A stretch of DNA of 64,000 nt. Origin: Pedobacter cryoconitis. GTDB lineage: Bacteria; Bacteroidota; Bacteroidia; Sphingobacteriales; Sphingobacteriaceae. This document shows positions 31,081 through 58,295 of this stretch, one piece after another (within the stretch, counting starts at the first letter, position 1; the number at the start of each line of letters is the position of its first letter). The notes beneath the pieces were generated by a model. The model was not told the DNA's origin. It saw nothing but the letters and a program-made list of their open reading frames with translations, and did no database searches. Location of the stretch: NCBI RefSeq assembly GCF_003259615.1, contig NZ_QLLR01000001.1, forward strand, positions 3,922 through 67,921. Reading direction: 5' to 3'. A program made the translations under genes and the position numbers.

Positions 31081-32349
31081 TTACTCCATTAATAAGGTAG
31101 TAAGCTCAGCTCTTTCTTCTTCTTCCAGGTCAACTATATTCTCCAGCAGGTGCAGCAGGCTACTCCGCTGATCAGAAACCAGTAAGGCATCAATTAGCGC
31201 TATAAAGGTCTTTTTTTGATCTATACTAAGGTTACTGAATATTTTCGGCTGAATTTCATACATGGCTTTCAGCGTATTCAGCAGGTCTTCTTTTCTTTTG
31301 GGATTAAGTGGTTCTTTATCACTCAAAGAAAGTACGCCTTCATTTTCAAAACGCTGAAGCAGTTTACTGGAATATTCTTTCAGGAAAAACTTCCTTTTTG
31401 CCCGGAGCAGTTCATTCACCTTTTTGCTGAGTAACTTATATTCCGGTGATGATTTTGAACGGTTATATAATTTCACCTGCGTATCGAACTCTGTTCCGCT
31501 GAAATCGAAATCAGTAAAAAATTCACTTTCTATATAAACACTGTGAAAATATTCGTCAGCCTTTTTATTCAGGGTCGTATATTCTTTAAACTTCTCTTCG
31601 CCCCTTTCGTTGATATAATAAACTTTGGATAGTTCTTTATGTAAAGACTCTTTCCACTGTACGAACTTCAGCTTAAACAGCGTCTGTGTGCTTTCATCCT
31701 TCAGCAGAATACCCTCTTCATAGTATTGGATATTATCAGAATAATCAAGCGGCACACCATTAATTACAATGGAATAATTCCTCTTTTTATTCAATTCCAG
31801 AAACCAGCAAAACTCTGCTTTCAGAAAAGGAATGATCTCCTGTTCCATATTCTCCTCTAAAATCTTGATATTGGAGAACAATACCCTGGTGCCTGTTTTT
31901 TCACTTAAAGGCATATCCAGCAAATTTGCCTGGTAATTATTCAAAGCGGATACCCCAATCATAATCCTGCCGCTTTTCAGTACATTATTATGCAGAAAAG
32001 TAGTTTGCCATTCGGCATCATTGGCGAACTTAAAAAAGGTTAACCTTCCTACTCCATTTTTACCGTGCATCACAGACCTGTTCCTGTTCACAGCAAGCTG
32101 AAGTGCTTTCTCAGATTCGTAAAAAGGATCGAACTTAACTTTAAGATTTTTAAAATTTATTCCATAACCGTTGTCATAAATCTCCAGACGATCCATGAAG
32201 CCCAGTTCATTGGCCGTAAAGTTAATTTCTACCGTATCAGCATTGGCATCAAAACCATTCCAGATATACTCAGCCAGCGCCTGTTTCTCATTGTAATTAC
32301 GCAAAACCTTTTGTATGCCGCTGGAAGTGATATTTACATTATTTGCCAT
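31081..32349 (-). CDS. GHKL (Hsp90/MutL-type) ATPase domain protein
   Basis: This 422-residue soluble protein has a complete GHKL ATP-binding fold at its N-terminus. The N box EYIWNGFDANAD is near 27-38, G1 is IYDNGYGI near 57-64, and G2 is GKNGVGRLTF near 96-105. The middle has beta-rich sequence and the C-terminal 120 residues are helical and charged. Similar stand-alone GHKL ATPases occur in MORC/paraMORC-like and other conflict-associated families, but no nuclease or methylase lies beside it here. It overlaps the start of the exported chorismate mutase gene by 11 bases and is therefore co-transcribed with it. Confidence 0.75.
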   Translation of the reverse strand: MANNVNITSSGIQKVLRNYNEKQALAEYIWNGFDANADTVEINFTANELGFMDRLEIYDNGYGINFKNLKVKFDPFYESEKALQLAVNRNRSVMHGKNGVGRLTFFKFANDAEWQTTFLHNNVLKSGRIMIGVSALNNYQANLLDMPLSEKTGTRVLFSNIKILEENMEQEIIPFLKAEFCWFLELNKKRNYSIVINGVPLDYSDNIQYYEEGILLKDESTQTLFKLKFVQWKESLHKELSKVYYINERGEEKFKEYTTLNKKADEYFHSVYIESEFFTDFDFSGTEFDTQVKLYNRSKSSPEYKLLSKKVNELLRAKRKFFLKEYSSKLLQRFENEGVLSLSDKEPLNPKRKEDLLNTLKAMYEIQPKIFSNLSIDQKKTFIALIDALLVSDQRSSLLHLLENIVDLEEEERAELTTLLME

Positions 32350-32728
32350 GGAAGTTTAATTTAATTTCATCTTCAATTCTAAGACTTTCTATGTGGATGG
32401 CATTCATCATTTCGGTCACAAAGGTAGCTGATAAACCTTCTTTTGCACCTGTGGTGATACTTTTTTCCAATACCTGTTTGAAGCGGTCTGCCTGCAGGGG
32501 CGGAATATTATTTTTAGCCTTATAAATGCCGATCTCTTTGACTGCCCTTTCCCGCTCTCCAATCAATTCCATTAGTTTCTTATCCAGTGAATCAATCTTA
32601 TTTCTATTGATTTGCAGTGTATTCAGGCCACTATTGGGCGCTTTGACCAAGGCTTGCTGCGCAAAAGCCTCAGAATAACTCAGCAAACAAATCCCGGATA
32701 AAAACAGGATAAGGCTATATAACTTCAT
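32339..32728 (-). CDS. Exported AroQ-type chorismate mutase
   Basis: A signal peptide ending near AFAQ precedes a 90-residue helical chorismate mutase domain. The AroQ pattern is visible as INRNKIDSLDKKLMELIGER, RAVKEIGIYK and ADRFKQVLE, carrying the expected Arg, Lys, Asp and Glu positions. The enzyme turns chorismate into prephenate. Secreted versions (*AroQ) exist in several bacteria but their role outside the cytoplasm is unclear. At 129 residues this is a stand-alone domain with no dehydratase or dehydrogenase partner. It is followed by the GHKL ATPase gene with an 11-base overlap. Confidence 0.82.
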   Translation of the reverse strand: MKLYSLILFLSGICLLSYSEAFAQQALVKAPNSGLNTLQINRNKIDSLDKKLMELIGERERAVKEIGIYKAKNNIPPLQADRFKQVLEKSITTGAKEGLSATFVTEMMNAIHIESLRIEDEIKLNFHGK

Positions 32729-32795
32729 AATGATTTGATTTGACAGTTAAATTTAAGGTTTCGTCTGTGATTTAATTATAAAATAATTACAGATT

Positions 32796-32803
32796 TATTT
32801 TTG
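32796..32803 (+). promoter_or_regulatory. -7 box of candidate sRNA A
   Basis: TATTTTTG matches TAnnTTTG on the plus strand, between two minus-strand genes, with no plus-strand gene downstream before the terminator at 32877-32903. Confidence 0.4.
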
Positions 32804-32808
32804 GGTCT

Positions 32809-32910
32809 ATACAATAAAGCTCAATTATGAGCGTCTGTATATATGAGAGCGTTAATTTAGATAGCGGGGATGAGTCGGAGACTTATCCCCGTTTCTTTTT
32901 TACAGCCCTT
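32809..32910 (+). ncRNA. Candidate small RNA A
   Basis: A promoter-like box ends at 32803 and a plus-strand terminator (CGGGGAT...ATCCCCG followed by TTTCTTTTTT) ends near 32910, giving a transcript of about 95-100 nt with no ORF. A hairpin with GCTCA/TGAGC arms lies in its first third. The terminator has no T-run on the minus strand, so it does not serve the adjacent minus-strand gene. The element lies just past the 3' end of the VirJ-domain gene and reads antisense to its last bases. Confidence 0.4.
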
Positions 32911-33595
32911 TTATAATCGCCCTGGTTACCTGGGGAATATCATCGTCAAAACGATGAGAGCCAGGGATCGTAACCTTATGTATTTTATCCGTTTGCTTTA
33001 AAGCCTTATAAAACTCACTATCCTCGTCTTTACCGAAAATACACCAGACAGGAATTACTGATTTCGCTAATTCAGGGGTCACTTTATATTTCTCTTTGTC
33101 AGTAGACCCGAAATTCAGTAAGTTTTTCAGTTTAACTACATATCCGGTCGAAAAACCTGGCGAAAGTAAAACCAGGGAGTTTTGTTTTTCTGCTAAATGG
33201 CCCGGTAAACGGGAAGGTACAAAAGCGGCAACATCTGCCCCAAAAGAATAACCAACCAGAGAAAATGATTCCTTATTCCAGGTTTTCAGATAAGAAGACA
33301 GGATCACCTGCATATCTTTTGCAAACTGATCAGGTGTTTTCTGTGTCCAGAAATATTTGCGGGTATCGAGTACCAGTGTTGAATACCCGCTTTTAACCAG
33401 TTCTTTTACGGTTGACTCCGAAAAATTGTTCCATCCGCCATCACCAGTCAGGAATACAACCATAGGTTTATTAGAGCGCACAAAATGTGCATGCAGTGGG
33501 AATTCTGATAATTCGCGTACAGGTTGAGCATTCACGTTCATCAGGCTGAATGCCGTAATGAGCAAACAGGAGCTTAAAATAGTTATTATCTTCAT
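32900..33595 (-). CDS. Exported VirJ-domain (AcvB/VirJ-like) hydrolase
   Basis: A signal peptide (about 1-23) precedes an alpha/beta-hydrolase-like VirJ domain. The GDGGWNNFSE segment is at 51-60 and the GYSFGAD elbow places the likely nucleophile at Ser117. The His is in PGSHRFDDD near 215. AcvB/VirJ proteins of Agrobacterium and relatives act in the periplasm; a lysyl-phosphatidylglycerol hydrolase activity has been reported for the family. This 231-residue version has only one domain. A -7 box lies 48 bases upstream. Two candidate small RNAs flank it. Confidence 0.78.
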   Translation of the reverse strand: MKIITILSSCLLITAFSLMNVNAQPVRELSEFPLHAHFVRSNKPMVVFLTGDGGWNNFSESTVKELVKSGYSTLVLDTRKYFWTQKTPDQFAKDMQVILSSYLKTWNKESFSLVGYSFGADVAAFVPSRLPGHLAEKQNSLVLLSPGFSTGYVVKLKNLLNFGSTDKEKYKVTPELAKSVIPVWCIFGKDEDSEFYKALKQTDKIHKVTIPGSHRFDDDIPQVTRAIIKGL

Positions 33596-49559: not shown

Positions 49560-50282
49560 TTATTTGCTCATTAATAGCGTAGCCCGGATGTTGGTCTGAC
49601 CAGTTCCTTTATCGTCCAGATAAATCAGATACACAGCAGCAGTTTCTACCGGAAGACTCAGCGGCGTACTAAACAGCACAGCCTGGTCATTGGAGTCTTT
49701 GATCAGCAGCGTAAATTCTTTTATTGGTTTCAAGAACTGATCTTTTCCTACCAAAAGAGTTTTAAATCCTGAAAATGAAGCGGACAACCGGAGGAAGTCG
49801 CCAACTTTTATTTCTTCTGATCCAGGACCTTTATATGTAGTGGTGGTGATATAAACATTTACCTTATCTGGTAATACTTTAGAAAAGTTAGCCAGACTGA
49901 TTTTCACTGAACCGGCCGCTGGCAAAGTTTCTTGATTAAAACCATGAAGAGAATCATCAAAAACCCGCAGCTTAATTTTATCATTTGGCCTGAGCATAAA
50001 ATATTTATGGTTTTTAAAGGCCTCTAATTTTAATAAAGTATCTAATAATAAAGTAGTATCATCGTAGAACCTGAACCTGTTCTCTCCCGAAACCAGGCTG
50101 ACACTGGTAATAGGTACAGTTAATTTATTGCCTGCCCCTTCTACAACAGTTACTTTTTGTGAAGTGAAATCACTGATAGAGAAGCTTCCAAATGCAGGGT
50201 CTTTCACTAATTTTCCTTTTGAGCAGGAGGAAATTCCAGACATAAACAACATGGATAAAATAAAGTAAAAGGTTATTCTCAT
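49560..50282 (-). CDS. Unknown lipoprotein
   Basis: A lipoprotein signal ending at ISSCSKG (Cys20) precedes a 220-residue, mostly beta-strand region. I recognise no family. The second half, with an ITTTTYKGPGSEE stretch and alternating hydrophobic residues, suggests two small beta-sandwich domains. It is transcribed just before the giant adhesin (77-base gap) and after a terminator that separates it from the beta-helix lipoprotein. An accessory surface role with the adhesin is plausible, by position only. Confidence 0.7.
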   Translation of the reverse strand: MRITFYFILSMLFMSGISSCSKGKLVKDPAFGSFSISDFTSQKVTVVEGAGNKLTVPITSVSLVSGENRFRFYDDTTLLLDTLLKLEAFKNHKYFMLRPNDKIKLRVFDDSLHGFNQETLPAAGSVKISLANFSKVLPDKVNVYITTTTYKGPGSEEIKVGDFLRLSASFSGFKTLLVGKDQFLKPIKEFTLLIKDSNDQAVLFSTPLSLPVETAAVYLIYLDDKGTGQTNIRATLLMSK

Positions 50283-50297
50283 AGCGTCTGAATAATG

Positions 50298-50333
50298 AAA
50301 AAGCAGTCCCTTTATAAAGGGATACTGCTTTTT
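50298..50333. terminator. Terminator after the beta-helix lipoprotein gene
   Basis: A stem AAAAAGCAGT...ACTGCTTTTT with an inner CCCTT/AAGGG stem forms a long hairpin, 22 bases past the minus-strand stop. Confidence 0.88.
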
Positions 50334-50355
50334 CTTAGAAATAAAATCTTAAAAA

Positions 50356-51762
50356 TTAATCTTGAGAAGTCTGTGGAGTGAATTTAGCCCATCCAGAAGT
50401 CCATTGACTTAAGTTTGAAGCAAGAACAGCACCTTTAGTCACTGTTGTATTTCTTGGCAACAAGTTATTGAAGCTATAAGTACTTGCAAGATCAGTTGTA
50501 TAAAAAGGACTTAAGTTTCTTGTTCCTCTGATACCTAATCCGATAAATGCGTCAGCATCAGCAGAAACTAAGATAGAGTTTGTACTTCCTGTTAATGAAA
50601 CAGCAGTTGCAGGGCTGAATACTGTTGTATAAGAATGAACAATATTATTGTTGAAACCACCAGGTGTTGCACTGGTTTCAGTTCCGCTTTGGAATTCAGC
50701 ACCAGTGTTATAACCAGCGATGATTGAATTCGTGATCGAAAGATCAGAATTTCTTCTCCAGCGGTTACCAGCACGTAATCCTGTATTAGCACTTGAATAA
50801 CCTAGTAAAGTGAAGTTTGAATAAGTTGGTTTTGTTCTTGGTGTAGCTGTTGAACCTGTACCATCATTATCTGATTCAATTCCGTTAGAGTCAGAAACAC
50901 CACCACTTGTACTATGCGTAGATTGTGGATCTTTTAAACTGATTGCATAGCTGATCGTTCCAGAATAACCGAAATCTGTATCAAAATCATCATCATCATT
51001 ACCAAGCGCTAATAAATAGCTTGGGCTAACTGTACCACCAAAGAATTCAAATGCGTCATCAGCTCCGAAAGAAACCTGTACGTGGTCAATAGTTGTACCT
51101 GATCCAACACCACCCATAGTTAAGCCATTGATTTCATTGTTTGGTGCAAGAATATAACCTGCATATTCAATACGTACATACTGAAATTTACCTGAATTAT
51201 CAGCAGGAACATTACCACCGTAAGTAAGGTCAACACCTAAGGAAACTCCATTGGCATCATAACCTGGCAAACCTTCAATAACCTGAGTAGATGGTTTGTT
51301 TGTAGTTGAATTTCCTAATAAAACAATCCCGCCAAAATCACCTGCAACACGGGTATTAGCTGCTTTTGGAGAAGTAAAGATGATTGGTTGTGATGGAGTA
51401 CCTACTGCATCAATTGAAGAACCTCTTGTTACTACCAATACTCCTGCAATTGCATTAACTACTGATGTAGAAGGGTCAACTTTGTAATTTACTTTTTCTC
51501 CGGTAGTAAGGATTGTACCTGGTTTAATAGTTAGTTTTGCTCCGCCAGTCACATAAACTACACCATTTAACTTGTAAACTTTTCCAGGGCTCAATGTTCT
51601 GCTTGCAGAAATGTTACCCGTAATTACGGAGTCAGCTCCGGTAAAAGGCCCGCCAGCGCCATTTGAACGATCAAAATTTCCTTCTGCTCCTTTTTTACAG
51701 CCTGCGACTGCGAATGCGGCAATTGCTACAATTGCAAGCGCTTGTTTTGTGAATTTTTTCAT
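50356..51762 (-). CDS. Parallel beta-helix lipoprotein
   Basis: A lipoprotein signal (AFAVAGCKKG, Cys22) is followed by a 440-residue Gly/Asn/Ser/Thr-rich protein with repeated short beta-strand turns. The stretches GVLVVTRGSSIDAVG, GGIVLLGNSTTN and GLTMGGVGSGTTIDHVQVS are typical of right-handed parallel beta-helices. Similar proteins in Bacteroidota are encoded beside TonB receptors and often lack a defined substrate. Asp-rich LGNDDDDFDTDFGY near 250 could bind calcium. It follows the STN-type TonB receptor gene by 160 bases on the same strand, so a receptor partner role is plausible. Confidence 0.78.
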   Translation of the reverse strand: MKKFTKQALAIVAIAAFAVAGCKKGAEGNFDRSNGAGGPFTGADSVITGNISASRTLSPGKVYKLNGVVYVTGGAKLTIKPGTILTTGEKVNYKVDPSTSVVNAIAGVLVVTRGSSIDAVGTPSQPIIFTSPKAANTRVAGDFGGIVLLGNSTTNKPSTQVIEGLPGYDANGVSLGVDLTYGGNVPADNSGKFQYVRIEYAGYILAPNNEINGLTMGGVGSGTTIDHVQVSFGADDAFEFFGGTVSPSYLLALGNDDDDFDTDFGYSGTISYAISLKDPQSTHSTSGGVSDSNGIESDNDGTGSTATPRTKPTYSNFTLLGYSSANTGLRAGNRWRRNSDLSITNSIIAGYNTGAEFQSGTETSATPGGFNNNIVHSYTTVFSPATAVSLTGSTNSILVSADADAFIGLGIRGTRNLSPFYTTDLASTYSFNNLLPRNTTVTKGAVLASNLSQWTSGWAKFTPQTSQD

Positions 51763-54900: not shown

Positions 54901-55114
54901 GGTCGTACACGAAAGTAAAAGAGGATTGTTTATCTAAATCCTTTAATAAGGTCTGAGCGGTACAGTTTTTATACATCAGGGTAATAGTTCCGCTCTGCCC
55001 CCGGGCTTTGGAAATACTATAAAATGATAAGAAAATAATCAGAAAACTGATGAGTAATAAGGGTTGAAGTGGATATACTGTATATTTTTTTTTGGACAGT
55101 AAATATATAATCAT
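51923..55114 (-). CDS. TonB-dependent receptor with STN signalling domain
   Basis: This 1063-residue outer-membrane receptor has a hydrophobic signal region (about 15-40), an STN domain (about 45-118) of the kind that signals to FecR, a carboxypeptidase-D-like domain (about 130-205, with ITGTVSDEKGETFPSASI), a plug (about 225-345, with NVGAILKRVSGLNVVDN and VVVRGLSDRYNQAQIDG) and a barrel ending VSMAFTYKF. Upstream, in the same orientation, lie a FecR-type anti-sigma gene and an ECF sigma gene, the classic surface-signalling set. A plus-strand promoter box begins at its start codon, predicting an antisense RNA over its leader. Confidence 0.93.
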   Translation of the reverse strand: MIIYLLSKKKYTVYPLQPLLLISFLIIFLSFYSISKARGQSGTITLMYKNCTAQTLLKDLDKQSSFTFVYDPAQMSEVKLQNINYNHLPLKLVLEDLEKKTNLNFSMLNSNISVRLTVKPPVKKPEPGKITGTVSDEKGETFPSASIRVIELGSGMQSAVDGTYVMSLPPGTYTLEISYISYQTQKITGVQIKAGAITKLDISMKPAANALKEVVVTSGYQKASTAGLYARQKTAAGITDGISAAQIARTPDNNVGAILKRVSGLNVVDNRYVVVRGLSDRYNQAQIDGVTQPSTDMNRRNFSFDAIPAEMVSSIVVNKTATPDLSSEFAGGQVIVNTLDIPIQNFMQFQVGTGYNSNTIGKDFMQAGKRAGAEVFGFMDKSHKLPLGLQSWSRNGAVPDYLITQSRAFDPGGFRLYRYGFEPNQNYRFSFGRVYPLKNGLSFGFVGGATLRNSQEINDFISTRGGFTPSSIDSADIRQNGRIYKYNSTISALLNLGVQGKGFKIGFRNMYSHVYNNDFITSESRDPTDEQKTGPEYRRQFNIQDPKNTTVLQHKLEGEHTLGESGVKLTWNGSYTHVSQTINDRRKFTAFGSGSVNGIPYFQRYLVANAKQNDGNPDYRLYTDTREKDYNWGINLSKSFELLGDNTLAKIGYSGFYKKRDLSNYTIEIYNAINPILFVAPYEYSLAPDKVGSGADQAFYSVPDDMGGQFTGKANSQSAYAMLDQRFFKKLRLVYGVRFDAYKLSNTQLKTKDGETNTDDNKKFLPSVNVTYSISDNINVRGSYATTVVRPDFRETSVFNLYDPILDARIRGSNVKSTKINNTDLRLEWYPSAGEIVSLSGFYKKFDKPIELVFIQDMAVDQYAFQNQKSAVNYGLEMEVRKSMGFIADRQWLRNLSVFGNGTLIKSDVVALSYEGVNNEVVKEVKSKRALYGQSPWIVNVGLSYTQLNYGANVVYNRSGYRTNTIHFSPLEIEYEMGRNLVDFQVFTRVFKQKGELKLNISNLLNAQTSFYKNINGYDGGGGDTPFVLKPGQTDQYKESDGDKITYQVRSGTNVSMAFTYKF

Positions 55115-55121
55115 ACTTTTG
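55114..55121 (+). promoter_or_regulatory. -7 box of antisense RNA
   Basis: TACTTTTG matches TAnnTTTG on the plus strand, starting at the first base of the receptor's start codon. The next plus-strand feature is a strong terminator, not a gene. Confidence 0.45.
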
Positions 55122-55126
55122 GAATG

Positions 55127-55228
55127 GTTTATTGCGCCTGTGAATCGTAATTTATCATTGTTTTTTTCCGGTCTGACCGGTAATTAAGAGCAGTACTGCC
55201 GCCAGCGGTACTGCTCTTTTTTTTGGAT
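55127..55228 (+). ncRNA. Candidate antisense small RNA at the receptor leader
   Basis: Between fecR-type and receptor genes (both minus) the plus strand carries a -7 box and, 65 bases later, a terminator with an 11-bp stem (AAGAGCAGTAC/GTACTGCTCTT) and eight Ts. A smaller CCGGTC/GACCGG palindrome lies in between. The transcript of about 95-100 nt would be complementary to the receptor mRNA leader. Placement matches the DonS-type RNAs that repress sigma/anti-sigma polysaccharide loci in Bacteroides. No T-run serves the minus strand. Confidence 0.5.
55187..55227 (+). terminator. Plus-strand intrinsic terminator in the anti-sigma/receptor gap
   Basis: AAGAGCAGTAC and GTACTGCTCTT form a perfect 11-bp stem with an 11-base loop, followed by TTTTTTTT on the plus strand only. 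Confidence 0.8.
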
Positions 55229-55252: not shown

Positions 55253-56209
55253 TCAATTCATAATAACATACCCCGCAGGGATTTTTTTAAACTTTAAATG
55301 GTGAGTAAATAAGAGTGTTTTAATTACATCTTCGACAGGCTCATTTCTAAAGCTGCCGCTAATGGCAAAGCCCTTCAGTCCTTGCTTTTCAAATTGCAGT
55401 GTAATATTATAGTAAGAAGCTACCTGTGCTAAAGCTTCTGTTAAGCTTGTATTATCGAATTCCAGTGTCCCATCCTCTGTATAAGATTTAATATGATCAT
55501 TGTTATCAAATACAGATTTTGTCCCTGCATCACCAACCTGGCTATACTGCTGACCGGGGGCAAGCCTTAAAGCATTAAAGCCCTTTTGCTGGCTGCCTAT
55601 TTCCACCTTGCCTGTATATAAGCGTATTTTTTCCAGCTGATAGTTTTTATAATTCTCTACGGTAAAAGAAGTCCCTAAAGCCGTAGTAGATAATTTCGCC
55701 GAGTAAACGGTAAAAGGTCTGTGTTTATCTTTAGCGATCTCAAAGAAACCTTTTCCTTTAATCAGAAATACTTTACGGTTATTGGAAGCAAATGCCGCAG
55801 GATATTTAAATACTGAGCCAGAGTTTAAGGTAACCACAGAATGATCTGTCAGGGTGATAATCTTTACAGAACCAACCGGGACAATGACCGTCGTAAAAGA
55901 AGTTTGTTGTTTTAGGCTTTCAGCTTTGCGATGTGCTAAATACCCCAAAGCAGAAACAAGGATAAAGGACGCTGCAACAGTTACTTTGATAAAAAATTTG
56001 AATACAGGGTGTAGCTTAACTGGTGAAGCAATGACTGGTTCCTCTTCAGTAACTACAGGAACTTTTTCACCAACCATTGGCATCATATCCAGATAGTCCA
56101 GATCAAATTCCCCATTTTCTACCAACAGGAAAAACTCATCCAGCTCTGCTGCATTCAATTCCTTTTCAAGAAACCTGCGGTATAGATTCTTTTTCTCGCT
56201 CGAGTTCAT
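55253..56209 (-). CDS. FecR-type anti-sigma factor
   Basis: This 318-residue membrane protein has a cytoplasmic N-terminus (about 1-85), one transmembrane helix (about 88-108, VAASFILVSALGYLAH), a periplasmic FecR domain (about 115-210, with VTLNSGSVFKYPAAF) and a C-terminal DUF4974 domain (about 245-318, similar in fold to STN). It holds the neighbouring ECF sigma factor until the TonB receptor's STN domain signals. It follows the sigma gene by 42 bases and precedes the receptor gene by 138 bases, with the candidate antisense RNA in that gap. Confidence 0.93.
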   Translation of the reverse strand: MNSSEKKNLYRRFLEKELNAAELDEFFLLVENGEFDLDYLDMMPMVGEKVPVVTEEEPVIASPVKLHPVFKFFIKVTVAASFILVSALGYLAHRKAESLKQQTSFTTVIVPVGSVKIITLTDHSVVTLNSGSVFKYPAAFASNNRKVFLIKGKGFFEIAKDKHRPFTVYSAKLSTTALGTSFTVENYKNYQLEKIRLYTGKVEIGSQQKGFNALRLAPGQQYSQVGDAGTKSVFDNNDHIKSYTEDGTLEFDNTSLTEALAQVASYYNITLQFEKQGLKGFAISGSFRNEPVEDVIKTLLFTHHLKFKKIPAGYVIMN

Positions 56210-56251: not shown

Positions 56252-56848
56252 TTAAAATAAATTATCCAGAGAAAATAGCAGGGGTAAAAACAAGTAAAGA
56301 TAATCAGCCGCATCCGCAAGTTTACCCAGATCTCTCTTTGCTAAACTCATGTGTTCTTTAATCGTTTCTTTGCTTACAGAAAGCATATTAGCGGCCTCAG
56401 CATAAGTGAACCCGTCAATTTTACACAGTTCAAAGGTTTGCCTCCTTTTAGCAGGAATACGTCCCATAATTTGACGGAGCAGGGCAAGATCCATAGCCGC
56501 AGCAATGGCAACGTGCTGACTTGCCTCTTGTTGGGCAGACAAATATCTTCCGCGGAATACATTCTTCATCTTCTGATCAGAAAGTACACGCTTTAACCAG
56601 GTAAAAGTTACATTTTTGGTAATGGTAAAAAGATAGGGCCTGATTTCCCGCTCCGGGTCCAGGTTTGCCCTTGCTTCCCAGAGCCTTAAGAAAACATCAC
56701 TGGTAAGCTCATCTGCAAGTTCAGCAGCACGTGTATGTTGAAAACAGTAAGCCCTTATATCTTTATAATACAGCTTATAAACCTGGGTAAAGGCATATTC
56801 ATCACCATTAATGAAATCCTGAATGATACCTTTTGTTAATACTGTCAT
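56252..56848 (-). CDS. ECF sigma factor (FecI-like)
   Basis: This 198-residue sigma-70 family protein has region 2 (about 20-90, ELADELTSDVFLRLWEAR and RPYLFTITKN) and region 4 (about 130-180, with FTYAEAANMLSVSKETIKEH as the helix-turn-helix). It is the Bacteroidota FecI-like type. It is the first gene of the sigma, anti-sigma, receptor series on the minus strand. The C-terminal tail YLYLFLPLLFSL is unusually hydrophobic and could contact membrane or the anti-sigma factor. The likely targets are the receptor and perhaps downstream genes. Confidence 0.92.
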   Translation of the reverse strand: MTVLTKGIIQDFINGDEYAFTQVYKLYYKDIRAYCFQHTRAAELADELTSDVFLRLWEARANLDPEREIRPYLFTITKNVTFTWLKRVLSDQKMKNVFRGRYLSAQQEASQHVAIAAAMDLALLRQIMGRIPAKRRQTFELCKIDGFTYAEAANMLSVSKETIKEHMSLAKRDLGKLADAADYLYLFLPLLFSLDNLF

Positions 56849-56927
56849 ACCTTACAAATTTAAGTTTCAGAATGATGTAGTATATAAACTACAGATTAAT
56901 TAAATGTTAACTTAAATGAAATAACTA

Positions 56928-58295
56928 TTAGTTTAGCCTGGTAATCGTCAGGTTTGATTTCAAGTCAACCGGAATCCTGGAATCAAAAAGAACTTTAGGT
57001 TTTTCACTGACAGCCTCAGTTTTAAACCGACCTGCAGCGACAAAGCTTTTCTGGAGACAACTTTGGATCAGCGGATCTGAAATATCACCAAAAGGTTTTA
57101 AAGGAAGTACGGACAATTCATCAGCGGTTTGATCTGGTATTAACCCGCTACTGTAATCCCCTTTTCCCGAAGCATTGTATAATTTAAAAATCATGGGATA
57201 GATTTCCCATTTCGGAACCAGCTGCGGATTTCTATAGTCTTTAATTACAAAACTGGCCATATCCTTCCCCAGTGTTTGCTGACCGGATTGAATCACAGTC
57301 AGATAAGGTCTTAACGAATTGATGAGCAGTTCGGCCGCGGATGCAGTATGACTGCCTGTCAATATATAAACTCTGCCGAGATTCAAACGGTAAGCAGAAA
57401 GCCCGGAGAAACTGACTTTCTGGATAGTTTGAAACTTGGTCATTTCTGCTCCAAAACTACTTTTCCTTGAACCTGCATTTGAATTACCTCTATATTCTAC
57501 AAAAGTAGCCCCTTCGGTAGCATTGGAAGAGATCAGGGTTGCTAAAGTCGCCGCAACAGGTACACTGCCCCCGGGGTTATAACGCAGGTCAACAATTAAT
57601 TCCTGAACCTGTTCTTGTTTGAAATAAGTAAAGGCTTTTTTTAATTGAGTTAAAGCACTTTCTTCAAAAGAGTTCAAAAAGAGGTAGCCATAAGTTTGAC
57701 CACCAGACTCAAAAACCTGGTAAGTATATACCGGATCTTCCGAATTGATTAACCGGGAGACTTTGATTGTTCCGTCTTTACCGGCCAGTTCGAGTTCGGC
57801 GCTTTGCTGTAAAATGCTGGTGCTGGTCAGCGCAGCAATATTAGCTGCGGATGGTACTGCTCCATTAATCTTTTTAATAATATCTCCGCGAACCAGACCT
57901 TTCTCTGCACCTCTGGAACCGGGAACAACCAGGCTGATTACCGTTTGCACCTGCCCGTTACCAGTTTGCAATGTAATCCAGTCAAACCCCAAAGTATGGG
58001 CTAAGGACGGCGGGTAGCTTTCCGGAAGATCCGGATTTACGAGCGCAGAGAAACGGTCAGCACCATTTCGAAGACCCTTAAAAAAAGCCGAAGGATCAGT
58101 ATTCAGGTCAGGTTTCCCTGGTAAACTATTATTCCAGTAATAGTATACTTTCATACTATCCAGCACCCAGGAATTGATGTTTTCCTGACTGCCGGCAGGA
58201 TAGTCTGGCCGGTCTTCGGTTTTGCGGCAACCAGTAATGGAGAAAAAAAACAAGTATAACAGCAGCGTTTTGATCAACAGAGAGCATGTCTTCAT
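56928..58295 (-). CDS. S41 family peptidase, lipoprotein
   Basis: A lipoprotein signal ending SITGCRKT precedes a C-terminal-processing-type protease of 455 residues. A PDZ-like domain (about 105-165, with GAEKGLVRGDIIKKING) is followed by the S41 catalytic domain. The nucleophile Ser lies in TGSHTASAAEL near 320 and the general base Lys in TLGKDMASF near 345. The ELIVDLRYNPGGSV segment is diagnostic. It acts on periplasmic or surface peptides. It is divergent from the EEP hydrolase gene and 79 bases downstream of the sigma gene's start, so it may be read separately. Confidence 0.9.
   Translation of the reverse strand: MKTCSLLIKTLLLYLFFFSITGCRKTEDRPDYPAGSQENINSWVLDSMKVYYYWNNSLPGKPDLNTDPSAFFKGLRNGADRFSALVNPDLPESYPPSLAHTLGFDWITLQTGNGQVQTVISLVVPGSRGAEKGLVRGDIIKKINGAVPSAANIAALTSTSILQQSAELELAGKDGTIKVSRLINSEDPVYTYQVFESGGQTYGYLFLNSFEESALTQLKKAFTYFKQEQVQELIVDLRYNPGGSVPVAATLATLISSNATEGATFVEYRGNSNAGSRKSSFGAEMTKFQTIQKVSFSGLSAYRLNLGRVYILTGSHTASAAELLINSLRPYLTVIQSGQQTLGKDMASFVIKDYRNPQLVPKWEIYPMIFKLYNASGKGDYSSGLIPDQTADELSVLPLKPFGDISDPLIQSCLQKSFVAAGRFKTEAVSEKPKVLFDSRIPVDLKSNLTITRLN

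Follow-up and report, generated by a model that had tools for sequence, protein, structure and literature searches.

A predicted cis-antisense RNA opposite the leader of a TonB-dependent receptor gene in a sigma/anti-sigma locus of Pedobacter cryoconitis

Loci of the FecI/FecR type are usually explained by transcription alone, namely by the interplay of substrate, anti-sigma factor, sigma factor and receptor. Antisense RNAs working together with a leader peptide are known from plasmid copy control, where CopA/tap and Inc/repY are the examples. The antisense RNA DonS and the PUL-associated cis-antisense RNAs of Bacteroides are attributed by later papers to Cao et al. 2016. DonS loci are under sigma/anti-sigma control.

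According to published articles, DonS-type RNAs of Bacteroides are cis-antisense transcripts of 78-128 nt that lower the expression of a susC homologue (PMC7366714), antisense RNAs exist for 15 PULs of B. fragilis (PMC9723704), and 32 PUL-associated antisense RNAs of B. thetaiotaomicron show both negative and positive correlation (PMC10994844). The FopS small RNAs of Bacteroides repress translation of SusC-like transporter genes by binding near the start codon; they form a family of 14 similar paralogs (nine intergenic, four antisense and one from a 3' UTR) and are related to GibS (PMC11697453). In the excerpts of open-licence literature that were covered, an antisense RNA of such a kind was not found reported for Pedobacter, Sphingobacteria or Flavobacterium.

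The window, i.e., the whole analysed stretch of 64,000 nucleotides from the P. cryoconitis contig NZ_QLLR01000001.1, contains a minus-strand locus consisting of genes for an ECF sigma factor, a FecR-type anti-sigma factor and a TonB-dependent receptor (Table 1). The element described here is encoded opposite the leader of the receptor gene in this sigma/anti-sigma locus, which is the position of DonS-like RNAs, and most of it falls within the 138 nt that separate fecR from the receptor gene. We consider it probable that a cis-antisense RNA about 100 nt long, which would pair with the receptor leader and lower receptor expression, is encoded on the plus strand at 55074-55224.

Table 1. Predicted features of the receptor locus and of the antisense element, in window coordinates.
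Feature	Position	Strand	Basis
ECF sigma factor	56252-56848	-	Pfam Sigma70_r2 + r4_2
FecR-type anti-sigma factor	55253-56209	-	Pfam FecR + FecR_C above cut-off
TonB-dependent receptor, 1063 aa	51923-55114	-	CarboxypepD_reg, Plug, beta-barrel
Predicted antisense RNA, ~100 nt, predicted 5' end 55125-55129	55127-55224	+	Promoter, terminator, fold, alignment
Promoter block, ultraconserved, overlying receptor codons 1-14	55074-55124	+	48/51 columns invariant, 11 genomes
-33-like element TTTG, end of T9 run, within receptor codons 7-8	55091-55094	+	Sequence
-7 element TACTTTTG, fits TAnnTTTG	55114-55121	+	Sequence; invariant in 11 genomes
Near-invariant 5' RNA segment ending in poly-U	55125-55166	+	40/42 columns invariant, 11 genomes
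Small hairpin CCGGT-CTG-ACCGG	55168-55180	+	2/5 pairs changed on both sides
Terminator hairpin, 14 pairs, 5-nt loop CGCCA	55186-55218	+	Stem search, fold
Terminator T-run, 8 T	55217-55224	+	Sequence; broken in one ortholog, L031
Nine-codon putative ORF MINYDSQAQ* in receptor leader, opposite antisense RNA	55129-55158	-	Sequence

The sigma factor was recognised by TIGR02937 above its own cut-off, and its TIGR02985 score was below the cut-off of that model. The receptor had been called an STN receptor in an earlier note on this DNA; its N-terminus looks STN-like by eye, but a Pfam STN hit was absent. Its TIGR04056 score (62.9 bits against a cut-off of 368.25) does not assign it to the SusC type, and Pfam gave no SusD match in the three genes downstream of it. 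Two genes that follow the receptor at 49560-51762 (-), encoding 240 and 468 aa, gave no match in either Pfam or NCBIfam at E 0.001. Just 5' of the sigma gene ATG, in the region 56848-56930 (-), a TAnnTTTG sequence of its own (TAAATTTG) was found, and because of it a separate predicted housekeeping promoter is suggested for the sigma-fecR pair.

Like the DonS RNAs, the Pedobacter element would be an antisense RNA opposite a TonB-linked receptor gene, it has many counterparts in one genome, and the predicted length of about 100 nt, calculated from the boxes and the terminator only, falls inside the range of 78-128 nt. It differs in that it belongs to another bacterial family, that the receptor is not of the SusC type by model score and that SusD was not found; the last two differences make it DonS-like in anatomy and not a member of DonS. 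By position, predicted length and orientation, it is analogous to DonS. With the FopS RNAs, it would share repression by binding near a start codon; unlike them, it would face the gene that it presumably targets, and no second full copy of it exists in the genome. With one full copy, a repeat element was ruled out. CopA/tap and Inc/repY resemble it in having an antisense hairpin RNA opposite a leader, and short upstream ORFs occur in many sibling loci of Pedobacter; the difference is that uptake receptors encoded on the chromosome are concerned here and that no upstream ORF precedes the hairpin at the window locus. An Rfam scan of the window revealed no family reaching its gathering score, and a 20-mer of the predicted RNA had no match in viral contigs.

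The earlier note had placed a box on the plus strand at 55114-55121, and TACTTTTG is indeed present there. Only this downstream box had been noticed; the upstream TTTG, at a spacing of 19 nt, completes a promoter of the Bacteroidota type, whose -33/-7 consensus is reportedly due to Bayley 2000. With the receptor ATG starting at 55114, the -7 box has one base in common with the start codon. Another Pedobacter genome shows the same arrangement of T9-GGA and TACTTTTG in front of its tRNA-His gene, which favours reading the promoter of the element as a housekeeping one. The perfect terminator reported near 55227 is real as regards its hairpin and its eight T residues, but the T-run ends at 55224. 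It has the most pairs among 14 terminator-like sites in the 50-60 kb region (mean of 8.2 sites in shuffled sequences). On the minus strand, no T-run follows the stem, as had been noted before, and the searches of this fecR-receptor gap gave no terminator for the sense strand.

These features suggest the following mechanism. A housekeeping-type promoter that overlies the start codon and the first 14 receptor codons would drive transcription away from the receptor and across its leader, and the intrinsic terminator just before fecR would end it. Beginning just above the start codon and continuing through the whole terminator hairpin, the predicted RNA is a perfect complement of the receptor leader. 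Pairing with the leader mRNA is therefore most likely, and translation would then be blocked or the message destabilised. Such an RNA would act as a standing brake, keeping the receptor low until the released ECF sigma factor yields enough mRNA to outrun it. The promoter and terminator sequences, their strand asymmetry, their conservation, the kept pairing and the recurrence at sibling loci are observed, and transcription of the RNA, its pairing with the leader and repression are their most likely explanation. The antisense RNA analogous to DonS that the earlier note had proposed is thereby supported by position, predicted length, orientation, conservation and recurrence.

Folding of the predicted RNA gave -35.1 kcal/mol against -20.6 kcal/mol in shuffled sequences (z -4.66; none of 200 shuffles was as good). 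In the alignment, 98.1% of the hairpin cells were paired (93.1% in shuffles), 14 cells carried double changes (5.0 in shuffles) and the covariation score was 0.227 (0.122 in shuffles), with none of 500 shuffles as high in each of the three measures; one terminator pair reads C-G, A-U or G-C depending on the species. The other two of the five pair-test measures failed to exceed the shuffles, namely the number of pairs with a double change (4 vs. 3.0; 153/500 as high) and that of further pair types (8 vs. 9.2; 464/500 as high). The hairpins form on the sense strand too. Several G-U pairs of the plus strand would become A-C on the minus strand, an argument for the strand that is weak because some cells go the opposite way. 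YUNR loops are typical of antisense RNAs; as a recognition signature, they were rejected here since they were not enriched (10/55 vs. 17/57 in controls).

The convergent geometry, with a well-formed and invariant promoter over the start codon, would also suit transcriptional interference, in which firing of the antisense promoter collides with receptor transcription and the RNA itself does little. A two-hairpin RNA and an invariant 5' segment have both been kept, although interference would require neither of them, and we regard this reading as unlikely.

In order to evaluate the recurrence of the element, 29 fecR loci of the same genome were used (32 FecR_C matches, 30 taken, of which one lay inside a receptor-sized ORF). 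Five other Pedobacter genomes provided 80 loci, i.e., 76 taken best-first among the matches listed (of 170) and four (L117, L135, L136 and L165) chosen for carrying the element. From these 109 Pedobacter loci, 18 with a gap of less than 60 nt and one other were dropped. In a wider set, the 57 best-scoring loci were used and seven were dropped for gap size. The locus counts are not independent, because the set includes orthologs of loci of the own genome. Terminators were detected with a strict test (perfect stem of at least 8 pairs), a looser test (perfect stem of at least 7 pairs) and a fold-based test allowing bulges, the last one added after perfect stems had missed cases by eye.

By the strict test, an antisense terminator was found in 10/29 fecR gaps of the own genome, the window locus included, and a sense terminator in 0/29, as compared with 2 antisense and 13 sense terminators in 83 codirectional control gaps. 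By the fold-based test, gaps of 60-320 nt in the own genome gave 14/20 antisense and 0/20 sense terminators, while 6/20 had no antisense terminator; the control gaps gave 9/84 and 21/84, respectively (p 2e-7 for 14/20 vs. 9/84). One of the control hits is a strong antisense-strand terminator at 32728-32899, between the minus-strand ORFs 32338-32728 and 32899-33595. The best-listed loci of the five other Pedobacter genomes together with the four chosen ones gave 45/70 antisense and no sense terminators by the same test. For all six Pedobacter genomes, antisense terminators were present in 46/90 gaps by the looser stem and in 59/90 by folding, among the matches listed. The best-scoring loci of further Pedobacter genomes (8/14 and 11/14, respectively) and of other genera of the family (11/16 and 6/16) also contained them. 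In other families of the class, the values for the best-scoring loci were 1/8 and 4/8, and all four fold-based hits came from one family (f51); outside the class, the best-scoring loci gave 1/12 by either test.

The strand asymmetry of the terminators bears on the possibility that the conserved block is mainly a sense element, made up of an ECF-sigma promoter and the receptor translation start, with incidental plus-strand signals. Such a reading can point to the leader and start codon being covered by the block, to hairpins that would act in the mRNA, to the good fold of the sense leader (z -4.05) and to each sigma factor possibly owning its promoter, which could explain locus-specific conservation. 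Against it, the 140 gaps among the matches listed had 81 antisense and 0 sense terminators by folding (67 vs. 4 by the looser stem), and TAnnTTTG was found in antisense orientation at -5..0 of the start codon in 42/90 Pedobacter gaps among the matches listed but in 0/84 control gaps. Weak searches revealed neither a motif common to the leader and the region upstream of the sigma gene nor a clear ECF promoter in the leaders. A shared sense ECF promoter was rejected as a candidate after most of what the k-mer search turned up proved to be fecR codons and the word at the start codon, and AACC-rich stretches yielded no second box.

In the own genome, TAnnTTTG lay opposite the start codon in 7/20 gaps and was absent from 13/20. 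It was found in the best-scoring loci of further Pedobacter genomes (9/14), other genera of the family (6/16), other families of the class (1/8) and outside the class (0/12). The complement of TACATTTG was present in 19/68 leaders (0.5 in shuffles). The 48/90 Pedobacter gaps that have no TAnnTTTG at the start codon, among the matches listed, agree with the idea of an ordinary terminator that stops stray antisense transcripts crossing the receptor gene; it could shield fecR from antisense reads, and no dedicated RNA would exist. We find this very improbable, as at this locus both promoter boxes are invariant and stand at a suitable distance from each other, and the RNA between promoter and terminator is conserved and folded.

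A covariance search near fecR-receptor pairs, proposed in the earlier note, was performed with a model of the predicted RNA over 78 fecR loci and gave 16 matches at E values up to 1. Two were loci already in the model and two lay on the opposite strand of those; of the other 12, nine were antisense in sibling gaps, two were elsewhere and one was in a locus dropped for its gap. The expected position was thus found in most cases, but the E values were mostly weak (0.0009 for the best sibling, above 0.01 for the others), which indicates a shared two-hairpin plan and not close homology. Judging by these sequence comparisons, many sibling receptors under this type of sigma/anti-sigma control seem to have an antisense RNA of their own.

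For the analysis of conservation, a 161-base query was searched against 145 genomes of the genus including the own one (E <= 0.01). It matched 16/145 genomes; in 11 of these, counting the own one, the element is present with 91-100% identity, and the other five showed short weak matches only, one of them being the tRNA-His promoter. The element was therefore kept in the own genome and in 10 of the other 144 searched. As the earlier note had expected of related loci, box and terminator are conserved: the boxes are invariant and the hairpin is kept in 11/11 genomes with the element, including L031, where an A interrupts the T-run. In the block 55074-55166, 88/93 columns were invariant among the 11 genomes, while the comparison of four segments from fecR and the receptor gene gave mean identities of 72-79%, and that of the rest of the gap 66%. 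Third codon positions of the receptor were invariant in 13/14 cases under the promoter, and then in 2/14, 6/72 and 14/100 (11 genomes), so that the receptor-side edge of the block coincides with the plus-strand promoter.

This edge also speaks against a sense element, since the invariant stretch reaches 42 nt into the coding sequence and ends at the -33 box. In its favour, the receptor starts of L051 and L053 are likewise very conserved. Taking both sides together, a mainly sense function of the block appears improbable. If the antisense reading is true, the nested promoter would explain the frozen synonymous sites at the receptor start.

Cis pairing survives any mutation, and so pairing alone cannot account for the near-invariance of the 5' segment; a further constraint on it is likely from the alignment, and this may stem from a promoter on the sense strand, a signal for translation start, a target in trans or a small ORF. 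The segment, followed by poly-U and hairpins, has the build of a seed-type small RNA (40/42 positions invariant), and the RNA could be a trans-acting one lying here by chance, with the segment as a seed for other mRNAs. A search for the 19-nt target complement in five genomes gave 11 matches with three mismatches against 4 for a reversed-pattern control, a small excess. However, the perfect match was the own locus only in each of the five genomes, all others had at least 3 mismatches, and no second site was seen recurring across the five genomes in this 19-nt search; a trans-acting RNA appears improbable.

A second frozen receptor start region was observed in four Pedobacter genomes. L051 and its orthologs L132, L149 and L161 have 103 identical bases, 47 before the receptor ATG and 56 from it.

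Small reading frames were also considered. The earlier note had stated that no plus-strand ORF lies in the gap; this has to be qualified, as a 31-aa frame with a TTG start (55092-55187) and tiny ORFs are present. The 31-aa peptide was rejected as unlikely to be made, because its frame crosses a T-run and a hairpin, stretches that vary in length in relatives. An octapeptide frame, MVYCACES*, at 55124-55150 (+) is kept in 11 genomes, and the single variable site in this stretch exchanges the stop codons TAA and TGA. It was set aside as a peptide: its ATG is at or before the expected RNA start, and it would be usable only in a leaderless reading. On the minus strand, MINYDSQAQ* has a single variant in the 11 genomes, a substitution of His for Tyr.

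Among 54 non-redundant gaps with a length of 140 nt or more, 35 have a short ORF in the sense leader that starts 12-84 nt past the fecR stop and comprises 4-13 codons (18.3 in 300 shuffles, sd 3.4, maximum 29). In 20 of these ORFs, the second residue is K, R, E or N (4.9 expected), and 10 end in proline (1.2 expected); these figures are exploratory, because the test window and the features were picked after viewing an overlapping set. Such ORFs may encode leader peptides, whose translation perhaps terminates slowly. The gap of the window itself has no such ORF before the hairpin.

More tentatively, and with more doubt than belief, most sigma/anti-sigma TonB receptors of Sphingobacteriaceae might possess a private switch composed of a hairpin leader, an antisense RNA from a housekeeping promoter nested at the start codon, and often a leader peptide. 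Translation of this peptide (4-13 codons, often proline-ending) would decide whether the antisense RNA acts, by analogy with the logic of plasmid copy control transferred to uptake receptors, and the invariant segment at 55125-55166 would serve another function in addition to pairing in cis. If many such receptors carry a cis-antisense brake, post-transcriptional receptor control would be broader in Bacteroidota than in gut Bacteroides; the brake would occur in Sphingobacteriaceae and at least one other family and would include a receptor that is not of the SusC type.

Upstream ORFs were seen in L048, L045, L051, L055, L061, L107, L147, L166 and others, with MKRKLQKH, MKKIYKKGS, MKNHQHDP and MSNSP as examples from the sense leaders. 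In one ortholog set, the frame is kept as MKRKLQKH/MKRKLQEY/MKRRLLAH. In a second set, it is kept as MDRLKIY/MNQLKLY/MDRLKIY, and the fourth member has lost the frame.
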